From: Myxococcus sp.
GTDB taxonomy: Bacteria > Myxococcota > Myxococcia > Myxococcales > Myxococcaceae
DNA: 64,000 nt
Direction: 5' to 3'
NCBI GenBank assembly: GCA_014879945.1
Contig: JACSRE010000437.1
Coordinates: 1 to 64,000 of the forward strand
The notes beneath the pieces were generated by a model. It was not told where the DNA came from, did no database searches, and saw only the letters and a program-made list of their open reading frames with translations. Positions 14,985 through 16,805 of this stretch are shown here, piece after piece; within the stretch, counting starts at the first letter, position 1, and each line of letters starts with the position of its first letter. The position numbers and the translations under genes are program-made.

Positions 14985-15058
14985 CGCGGGGTGGAGCAGC
15001 CAGGTAGCTCGTCGGGCTCATAACCCGAAGGTCGCAGGTTCAAATCCTGCCCCCGCAA
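14985..15058 (+). tRNA. Initiator tRNA-fMet (CAU)
   Basis: 74-nt initiator methionine tRNA, close to the E. coli sequence: acceptor CGCGGGG pairing to CCCCGC with the initiator-specific C1 x A72 mismatch, the GGG/CCC pairs flanking the CAU anticodon (GGGCTCATAACCC), and GTTCAAATC in the T-loop. CCA is not encoded. The 3' end is the insertion site of the island: 15049-15058 is repeated at 42350-42359, and the serine recombinase frame runs antisense into the gene. Confidence 0.97.
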
Positions 15059-16805
15059 CATCCGGTGGACAAACCTGGTTCTCGGCAACGGGAACCAGGA
15101 TGTTCTCCAAGAAAAGTGAGCCGACGACCCGAAATCCCCAGGTCGCTCGGCTCTTTTCTTTTCTGGGCGTCTTCTCGCTCTTCACCGTCTTCTTCTTCTC
15201 TTCCACGCTCTTCACCGCGGGCTCGGCCGCGTCGGTGAGCTTCTCCGGGTAGAGCTTGAGCTCGCCCACCAGGGCCTTGAGCATCGGCTTGGCGGAGGCG
15301 GGGTCGTCGCCGGTCAGGTTGTCCCGGAGCCGCAGCAGCTCGTTCCTGATGGCCTTGGTGGGGGGCGTCTCCCACTGGTTGGCGGCCACGGTCATGGTCT
15401 CGATCTCGGCCTTGAGCTTCACGGCGCGGTCCTCAGCCTCACGGAGGCGACCGGCTACGGCCTGGCTGGCCCCAGTCTCGATGAAGCCGAGGAGGTTCTC
15501 GATCTTCACCTTCTCGTCGTTCAGCGCCTTCTCCAGCTCGGCCTTCTTCGTCCCGGAGGCCAGTCGGTCGGCCTCTTCGGCGAAGGCCTTCCTGAACTCG
15601 TTCTCGAAGTAGGCGATGGCCTCGTCGTTGAGCAGCAGCCGCACCAGCTCGGCGGTGACGGCCTGCTCCAACTTCTTCTTCGAGATGGTCAGCTTGTTGG
15701 CGCACTCGGCTCCACCGTGCCGCTTGGCGAAGGCGCATTGGTACTGCCTGTAGGCCTCCCCGGTGTTCGGGTTCTTCTTCCCGCCGATGAGGGCCATGGC
15801 CCCACCGCACACGCCGCACTTCACCAGGCTCGAAAGCAGGGCTGGTGACCGGGTGCCACCGCGAGCGTGGCCCTTCATCTTGCCGTCAGGCCCACGGCCG
15901 TACTGCTTGGCCCGCTCGTCGAAGTTGCGCCTCACAGCGTCGAAGAGCTCGGGGGTGATGATGGCGAGGTCTGGCTCCTTGCGAATCACCCACTCCTCAG
16001 GCGGGCGCATCTTCGGACCGCGCTTTCCCGTCTTGGGGTTCTTTTCAAAGCGGCGCGTGTTCCAGACGACCTCGCCCTTGTAGTGCGGGTTCACCAAGAC
16101 CGCTCTTGCGGACGAGACCGACCAGCCCCTGCGACGGTCGGGACGCTTGCCAGGGTCGGGTGATGGGGCCCCCATCTTCACCAGCTCGCGCACGATGGCC
16201 TGGAGCGTCTTCCCCTCGGCGGCCATGAGGTACATCTTGCGGACGATCTCGGCCTCGCCCTCATGAACGACGCGCCGCTTGCCGTCGTCTTCGTTGCCGG
16301 AGGCCGGCACGCTCCGGTAGCCGAAGAGACGGCCACCAGTGCTCCGGCCGAGGAGGGCCTGTCCCTTCTGCCCCCGGTGCGTCTTCTCGCGGAGGTCCTC
16401 GATGAACATGTCGTTCATCAGGGCACGCATCCCGAGGTTCACCTTCGCCATCTTCCCTTCGCTGCTGTAGCCGTCGCTCGCGCCGAAGATGTCGACGCCG
16501 TCGAACTGGAGCTGCTTGAACAGGGTGAAGGTGTCGCCGAGGTCGCGGCTCAGGCGGGACATGTCATCGACGACGACGTAATCGACCGGCGAGGGGCTCT
16601 TGCAGACCGTCTGCATGAGTGCCTCCAGCCCGGCCCTGCCGGCGATGGTCTGCCCCGAGAGTGCCGAGTCGCGGAAGATGAAGACGTCGTCAAGGGTGTC
16701 GCCCCGCCGCTTGACGAACTCACGGATGTTGCGGAGCTGGTCTTCGAGGCTCGCTTCGCGCTGCTTGTCGGACGAATAACGCAGGTAGGCGGCGGCCCTG
16801 GCCAT
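15018..16805 (-). CDS. Large serine recombinase (integrase)
   Basis: 595 aa serine integrase. Catalytic domain with nucleophile S11 in YLRYSSDKQ, the RDSALSGQTIAGRAG segment and DDMSRLSRD; then the recombinase domain, a zinc ribbon (KCGVCGG ... QCAF ... CANK, about 330-375), a coiled coil and a basic tail. The frame ends inside the tRNA: its last residues, AGAGFEPATFGL, are the antisense of the tRNA-fMet T-arm and anticodon region, so the C-terminus is partly supplied by the host. It mediates site-specific integration and excision of element A. Confidence 0.95.
   Translation of the reverse strand: MARAAAYLRYSSDKQREASLEDQLRNIREFVKRRGDTLDDVFIFRDSALSGQTIAGRAGLEALMQTVCKSPSPVDYVVVDDMSRLSRDLGDTFTLFKQLQFDGVDIFGASDGYSSEGKMAKVNLGMRALMNDMFIEDLREKTHRGQKGQALLGRSTGGRLFGYRSVPASGNEDDGKRRVVHEGEAEIVRKMYLMAAEGKTLQAIVRELVKMGAPSPDPGKRPDRRRGWSVSSARAVLVNPHYKGEVVWNTRRFEKNPKTGKRGPKMRPPEEWVIRKEPDLAIITPELFDAVRRNFDERAKQYGRGPDGKMKGHARGGTRSPALLSSLVKCGVCGGAMALIGGKKNPNTGEAYRQYQCAFAKRHGGAECANKLTISKKKLEQAVTAELVRLLLNDEAIAYFENEFRKAFAEEADRLASGTKKAELEKALNDEKVKIENLLGFIETGASQAVAGRLREAEDRAVKLKAEIETMTVAANQWETPPTKAIRNELLRLRDNLTGDDPASAKPMLKALVGELKLYPEKLTDAAEPAVKSVEEKKKTVKSEKTPRKEKSRATWGFRVVGSLFLENILVPVAENQVCPPDVAGAGFEPATFGL
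15049..15058. repeat. Left attachment site core (attL), element A
   Basis: GCCCCCGCAA, the last ten bases of tRNA-fMet, recurs once at 42350-42359. The left copy follows an intact tRNA; the right copy precedes a terminator that looks like the native tRNA terminator. Short direct repeats of this size suit serine-recombinase integration. Confidence 0.7.
15074..15099. repeat. Inverted repeat at the left end of element A
   Basis: CCTGGTTC/GAACCAGG, perfect 8-bp arms with a 10-base spacer, starting 16 bases inside the element. An outer pair AACATCC (15057) and GGATGTT (15098) partly overlaps it. It lies beside the presumed crossover and could be a recombinase-binding arm. Confidence 0.5.
15118..15164 (+). 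terminator. Element-borne terminator behind tRNA-fMet
   Basis: GAGCCGACGACC (15118-15129) pairs with GGTCGCTCGGCTC (15141-15153) with one bulge, followed by TTTTCTTTTCT. It is an intrinsic terminator in the tRNA direction, lying antisense inside the recombinase coding region. It would replace the native tRNA terminator, now displaced to 42363. Confidence 0.75.

Follow-up and report, generated by a model that had tools for sequence, protein, structure and literature searches.

In a 64,000-nt stretch of the Myxococcus sp. contig JACSRE010000437.1 (the window), a mobile defence island lies in the tRNA-fMet gene, into which it was inserted by its own large serine recombinase. The attachment site of the element (attP) would overlap the recombinase coding sequence at its 3' end, and for this reason integration would exchange the C-terminus of the enzyme. 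A circle-form tail of 33 residues with a KHLAA end would be replaced by a tail and a stop codon read from the antisense strand of the tRNA (GFEPATFGL), and on the other strand the overlapping stretch would give the tRNA a new terminator. The outcome would be a two-state switch, with one integrase before integration and another after it. Such a switch appears most likely because the native tail in related elements is a selected C-terminal peptide; since selection on the tail is seen in two groups or more, its loss should matter. Taken as a whole (self-inserted island, tail swap, likely two-state switch), we regard this account as the best explanation of the sequence and as probably correct. The tail swap is real at the level of sequence and recurrent, and in the window it is predicted. 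We infer that the circle of the window yields a 619-aa protein in the host and that the tail alters the behaviour of the integrase.

The recombinase matched the Pfam models Resolvase, Recombinase and Zn_ribbon_recom, all three above their curated cut-offs. As a preliminary description of this DNA had noticed, its frame ends in the antisense of tRNA-fMet: the minus-strand open reading frame (ORF) stops inside the tRNA gene (Table 1), and the last residues of the 595-aa form, GFEPATFGL, together with the stop, are written by the host tRNA. All three domains are retained in the integrated ORF, so the gene is not split by integration. When the element ends were joined at the core computationally, the frame stayed open and gave 619 aa ending in GWRKHLAA. 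The last 33 residues after AGA (LSNRWSNGRRPRQNLLIPLNFVVEVGWRKHLAA) are encoded by codons 42250-42348, followed by a stop at 42247-42249; the same description had predicted about 34 residues and a TAG near 42249.

The ends of the element are marked by a shared core word. The 9-mer CCCCCGCAA is present in two copies in the window (0.81 expected), and two or more copies were found in 16 of 100 shuffles. Repeat length was dropped as sole proof of the right end, as 9-mer pairs are not rare by shuffling. The right end was made solid by an empty site in a relative, together with the homology of the displaced terminator to tRNA-fMet flanks. A 163-nt query, in which the tRNA was joined to what lies right of 42359, matched G007:C129 continuously over query positions 1-113 at 91% (G and L numbers are our handles for genomes and loci). 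Because the right-end flank is the tRNA-fMet terminator, the element measures about 27.3 kb. The empty site is thus known and the tRNA is intact after integration. The host genome contains one full-length copy of tRNA-Met (cat) and two further matches of 36-37 nt. Inside the element the G+C content is 59-69%, compared to about 70% in most flanking host windows.

Integration moved the native tRNA terminator to the far end of the element. The integrase gene end probably doubles as the new terminator, because its antisense strand is predicted to fold into a pair of strong hairpins, with TTTTCTTTTCT after the second one. Folding of positions 15060-15170 gave -54 kcal/mol (z -5.36), and none of 200 shuffles was as low; the replacement terminator was not listed by a simple consensus terminator scan. 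The linker resembles a terminator in many relatives as well. In the circle junction, read in integrase sense, putative inverted arms surround the core with their centre at 15050/15051. The best or joint best symmetry centre has the same offset in four of the five mapped elements (window, G006, G043 and G086, with one tie), and not in G082; for the window taken alone, the symmetry is weak, as 168 of 2000 shuffles did equally well. Coding, attP and tRNA-terminator functions may thus be combined in one and the same stretch.

An integrase search of 99 genomes of the genus, family and order found 12 loci besides the window's own. A tRNA-Met adjoins the integrase gene in 8 of these 12 (ARAGORN), and the core is crossed in 9: seven frames stop in tRNA-Met, L009 stops in a 45-nt 3' part of the tRNA, and L007 runs into a tandem neighbour. 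The seven stops in tRNA-Met use two frames, ..GFEP(A/V)TFGL and ..G(G/D)RI. L007 reads past the core into a different tail of 65 residues, supplied by the right end of the element before it. L014 is degenerate and stops ahead of the tRNA, and no tRNA was seen at L012 and L013. Besides the window, right ends could be read in G006, G043, G086 and G082; their flanks resemble the native tRNA flanks of congeners (G006, G086) or a tandem junction (G082). The native tails are ADSTFAAARRAFRVFIPSLERAA in G006, PHSTFAAPRRTFRVVVPALHPTSNPIVQG in G043, 33 residues ending NRSA in G086 and 65 residues ending PKRAA in G082. Over 19 codons, the G006 and G043 tails show 7/0/5 differences at codon positions 1/2/3, and identity is 79% in the tail versus 40% after it. 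By eye, the G082 tail has a zinc-finger-like stretch (C-x-PGC-RP--GLC--H), with no model match. Two tandem elements share one tRNA-fMet at L022/L023 (G082:C1:448250-464093), where the inner integrase takes its tail from the right end of its neighbour. L029 (G080:C1:1745420 onward), likewise at tRNA-fMet, is what remains of an element: 3.4 kb in which two cores enclose a degenerate integrase.

More distant serine integrases were taken from genome_contigs (at least 80 loci, all classed) and viral_contigs (47 loci, of which 14 were classed and 33 short or weak matches left out). The att core or the tRNA edge is crossed in frame in 81 of the 94 loci (L177, with the core word at its very end, is doubtful). 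The frame stops inside a whole tRNA in 45 and in a tRNA 3' part in 15 (60 together; tRNA-Met, -Phe or -Val); in 2 it runs through an entire tRNA-Phe, in 12 it continues past the core into a tail that is not tRNA, and in 7 (L177 among them) the contig ends when the core has already been reached or passed. Four others stop before the core, 1 is cut before it, and 8 show neither. The target is mostly tRNA-Met, with tRNA-Phe in soil viral contigs and tRNA-Val in L100, and the record titles name mainly Alphaproteobacteria and Myxococcota. In the tRNA-Phe and tRNA-Val set (L179-L184, L187, L100), some integrases read the whole tRNA antisense. Double cores 50-100 bp apart were seen inside the integrase ORF of L122, L142, L173, L170 and L241; a right arm and a left arm lie between the two cores, reminiscent of what tandem elements would leave behind when lost.

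The reading frame was analyzed in alphaproteobacterial loci with a G-x-L-A-x-L-L anchor, using the distance from anchor to core. Fifty loci with 20 distinct distances (25-61 codons) all enter the core in the frame that reads VAG, as do L149 and L157, in which the core is changed. L124, L132 and L146 have the anchor and stop ahead of the core, and L136 is cut. Among the anchored loci no entry into another frame was found, except in the myxobacterial L098 (frame 2). Because the measurement stayed inside the open frame, the evidence lies in the absence of out-of-frame cases and not in multiples of three.

Native tails were then compared in Alphaproteobacteria. Right ends found by an arm-pattern search amounted to 13 places in 12 of 295 genomes (family of G217), 11 places in 9 of 198 genomes (family of G196), and 16 places, 13 of them new, in 14 of 397 genomes (third set). 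No right end was found by this search in 200 genomes of the order of G205, nor in three alphaproteobacterial replicons scanned over 46-50 kb, and wider patterns gave no trustworthy one in seven alphaproteobacterial replicons. Counted from VAG, the tail has 17 residues in 8 of 13 cases in the G217 family (the other five have 19, 22, 22, 24 and 47) and 16 residues in 11 of 11 in the G196 family. At L120, L121 and L135 the tails are TCNHLKLLLQTVA, TCNHLKLLFEAAA and TCNHLKLLFQAVA; all end at the same position, and each with a different stop codon. Group A was formed from the eight 17-residue tails plus L115 and L124 (10 tails), and group B from 9 tails. Identity past the arm is 51% in group A and 70% in group B, and falls to 23% and 26%, respectively, after the stop, which is the chance level. 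Pairwise differences by codon position are 183/120/227 in group A and 56/34/139 in group B. Stop codons are TGA (5), TAA (3) and TAG (2) in group A, and TAG (6), TGA (2) and TAA (1) in group B. A codon-position bias combined with a stop that is fixed in place and substitutable is a mark of protein-coding sequence. By these comparisons, the native tails of both groups are conserved protein under selection, and because of this conservation integration there would remove a selected C-terminus. In the third set, 7 of 13 tails end in LF(R/Q/H)(A/V/S)AA at lengths of 16-48 from VAG; L279 ends in LLIRAVA, and L272 is broken, with a stop right after VAGA.

A native form is also found in a phage record. 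The integrase of Rhizobium phage RR1-A (JF974314), to judge from the record type sequenced from virions, reads ..LGGRVVAG-ERFEQSPQIILGRFVA. Its best plasmid relative (59.6% over residues 79-531; an incomplete copy) lies in tRNA-Met and reads ..LGGRMVAG-EGLEPPTRGL. The tail of Mae-JY30 has the same length as that of RR1-A. In relatives, circle-form tails were read at far ends, at tandem junctions and in the RR1-A record. The earlier proposal, of an attachment site within the coding region and an exchange of the C-terminus by integration, is therefore borne out by both forms in relatives, by tandem junctions and the phage record, and by tail conservation in the two alphaproteobacterial groups.

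As to what the tail does, we tentatively favour the reading that it is an instability signal at the C-terminus, akin to those of the ssrA/ClpX system, which would be lost on integration. ClpXP recognises a C-terminal LAA (PMC9635641, PMC7194413). The tmRNA tag of the host is ANDNVELALAA, ending in ALAA, and the native tail of the window also ends in LAA; tRNA-written tails end in FGL, FRL or RI. Of 51 distinct native tails, 27 end in A and 16 in AA, versus 14% and 3.1% of 2101 ORF ends; with the tails clustered to 9 groups, p was 0.004 (A) and 0.03 (AA). This set leaves out L272, L141 at 2461, L232 at 501, L176 at 15371, L245, L103, L177 and L188, the degenerate G080 element, the double-core scars L122, L142, L173 and L241, and repeated tails. 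In an off-frame control, AA ends were found in 14 of 34 tails in frame (L272 counted among the 34) versus 0 of 31 and 0 of 28 off frame.

Several points weigh against this reading and against the switch more generally. The A/AA pattern was spotted post hoc, and groups A and B were picked after the tails had been seen. Throughout the Rhodobacteraceae group the last residue is V, I or L, the G043 tail ends in QG, and L273, L274, L275 and L278 end in T, K, G and D. The last 21 residues of phiC31 integrase are non-essential and of unknown role (PMC5737554). The right ends of the 295-, 198- and 397-genome sets were found by arm pattern and not from a mapping of both ends. Early stops are also scarce in the +1 frame of the right arms (2 of 31, versus 1 of 34 in frame), so that an open start is by itself poor evidence. 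In the window, the openness of the 33-codon tail is unremarkable and was dropped as evidence, as another frame of the right end is open for more than 90 codons. The preliminary description had suggested a search for relatives with the window's own circle-form tail; none was significant elsewhere in 147 genomes of its class (next best E 0.043), which rules out a widely conserved window tail. For lack of a homologue in its class, selection on the window's own tail is unproven. The motif QNLLIPL...V..G of this tail is also found in the G003 integrase L016, in its end before the core, a score reached by 12 of 5000 shuffles; the right end may be what is left of the decayed 3' end of a different integrase gene.

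The next most likely mechanism, again a tentative one and argued by analogy to Mx8, is that the tail tunes recombination (synapsis, attB choice or direction) and not stability, the circle form integrating and the tRNA-tailed form being weaker or altered. The modified Mx8 integrase is less active, and a difference has been proposed for the rumA integrative and conjugative elements (ICEs) (PMC4701971); the new 3' end alters Mx8 specificity (PMC6070905). The Rhodobacteraceae tails share a basic RR.LP motif and are not degron-like. Against this, the signal in Hyphomicrobiales sits at the extreme C-terminus whatever the tail length, which would better fit a signal read from the end. The AlphaFold model of the recombinase (mean pLDDT 78.6, pTM 0.54) does not separate the two: its last strand spans 555-561, a weak helix follows at 567-578, and pLDDT is below 50 at 579-595 (the last 17 residues). 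Because pLDDT is low past this strand and helix, the exchanged part is modelled as a flexible end, which is compatible with an instability tag and with activity tuning alike.

It is unlikely that the swap is a by-product of an attP that merely lies at the gene end, with both tails inert and the frame running to any stop. The phiC31 residues after strand 14 are non-essential (PMC5737554), the tails are disordered in the model, the lengths of all 51 tails span 8-65 residues, and the window tail is a singleton. This reading is difficult to reconcile with groups A and B, where length is fixed, three stop codons are used, codon positions are biased and identity is lost after the stop, with a frame held over 20 linker lengths, and with an extreme C-terminus that is constant across tail lengths. 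Less likely still is a constraint acting on the DNA (attP arm, or sites for a recombination directionality factor or regulator) and not on the protein. The first ~9 codons past the core do follow the attP arm, and the symmetry is centred alike in four of five elements; past the arm, however, substitutions are commonest at the third codon position, and one site is taken by three different stop codons. That the right end is misassigned, or the element dead and its circle never formed, is scarcely probable: the shared word is only 10 bp, 9-mer pairs of this kind are not rare and a second island abuts the right end, but the empty site, the displaced terminator and the intact Pfam domains of the recombinase speak for an element with correct ends.

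The features of the element are listed in Table 1. Within the defence cargo of 29328-40552 there is also a gene for a YgjP-like metallopeptidase. To the right of the element, a 42-bp part of the native tRNA terminator (42372-42413) recurs 3.7 kb rightwards (46102-46143). Between these repeats lies a further small island, which carries a DUF262-like gene (42625-44421; HEC-05-like by PADLOC) and past which host genes appear to restart.

Table 1. Positions of the tRNA target, the attachment-site parts, the two recombinase ends and the cargo genes in the window.
Feature	Position	Strand	Details
tRNA-Met (cat), target gene (attB/attL)	14985-15059	+	ARAGORN
Large serine recombinase, integrated form, 595 aa	15018-16805	-	ends DVAGAGFEPATFGL inside antisense tRNA-Met (cat)
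Left core copy GCCCCCGCAA (attL)	15049-15058		only word of at least 9 bp common to both junction regions
Mobile element, ~27.3 kb	15059-42349		shared core, empty site
Integrase-side attP arm, AACCAGGTTTGTCCACCGGATG in integrase sense	15059-15080		within integrase frame; inverted symmetry
Two hairpins (15074-15099; 15118-15153, then TTTTCTTTTCT)	15074-15164	+ (tRNA strand)	antisense to integrase 3' end; probable replacement tRNA terminator
DUF3854 protein	17273-18421	+	
Type I restriction-modification genes	29328-36069	+	HsdM 29328-31796, HsdS 31787-32974, HsdR 32971-36069
Gabija genes	36768-40552	+	GajA 36768-38702, GajB 38699-40552
Predicted native (circle-form) tail, 33 codons + TAG	42247-42349	-	needs circle
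Right attP arm	42322-42343		13/22 match to other arm inverted
Right core copy GCCCCCGCAA (attR)	42350-42359		shared word; empty site in relative
Native tRNA terminator, moved to far end of element	42360-42410	+	fold z -5.75; homologous to G007 tRNA flank

Tail exchange by integration is known from other systems. In the myxophage Mx8, attP lies in the integrase gene and integration replaces 112 C-terminal residues by 13 (PMC6070905, PMC4701971). The likeness to Mx8 pointed out in the preliminary description holds for this principle: as in IntP/IntR, the window has attP within the integrase gene and a C-terminus that is exchanged. It does not extend to the enzyme. Mx8 Int belongs to the tyrosine integrases (against models of that family, Phage_int_M was above its cut-off and Phage_integrase below), whereas the window recombinase is of the serine type, so that it works alike without being a member; the Mx8 record ends in GESPSAT, without an alanine end. 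Closer are the streptococcal rumA ICEs, in which the att site lies in the gene of a single serine integrase and the two forms differ in length and C-terminus, with a functional difference proposed (PMC4701971). The window enzyme is likewise a serine integrase with att in its own gene, but its target is tRNA-Met and not the protein gene rumA. The available part of the rumA account describes no selection on the tail, whereas here selection is seen in two alphaproteobacterial groups.

In mycobacteriophages with integration-dependent immunity, attB is a tRNA gene and integration strips the repressor of a C-terminal tag resembling ssrA (--LAA or similar); a tag is also present on the viral integrase (PMC9262239). 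The window shares the tRNA attB, and its predicted native tail, with an LAA end like that of the host tmRNA tag, is a candidate for such a tag. There, however, attP lies in the repressor gene and the integrases are of the tyrosine type, whereas attP of the window lies in a serine integrase gene. Archaeal SSV-type suicidal integrases, also tyrosine enzymes, have the att site inside the gene, as in the window, and the gene is split into two inactive parts (PMC8371274). A full parallel was ruled out, as the swap in the window changes the tail only and keeps all three Pfam domains. According to earlier accounts, tRNA genes are not among the targets of serine integrases (PMC4383910; in the case of mycobacteriophages, PMC9262239). 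The accessible text of PMC12884075 does not state the integrase class at tRNA genes. Our literature search, which covered few subscription papers, found no tRNA-targeting serine integrase with a swapped tail. While the swap principle was known already, serine integrases in tRNA genes, the breadth of the set and the selection on the removed tail are new here.

The direction of serine-integrase reactions is credited to directionality factors; here, a broad tRNA-sited set alters its own C-terminus on integration. Two naturally occurring versions of the same enzyme thus allow a direct test of what serine-integrase C-terminal tails do, a point that work on phiC31 left unanswered (PMC5737554). When an integrase sequence is copied from an integrated element, for a database or for genome engineering, its tail is the one written by the host and not the native one. 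In its strongest form, which we consider doubtful, the account would describe a widespread tRNA-targeting family that trims a conserved instability tag by integrating: the enzyme would be short-lived before and long-lived after, the tRNA would write the stable tail and its antisense would rebuild the terminator. If true, the recombination that inserts the element would also reset the lifetime of the enzyme.

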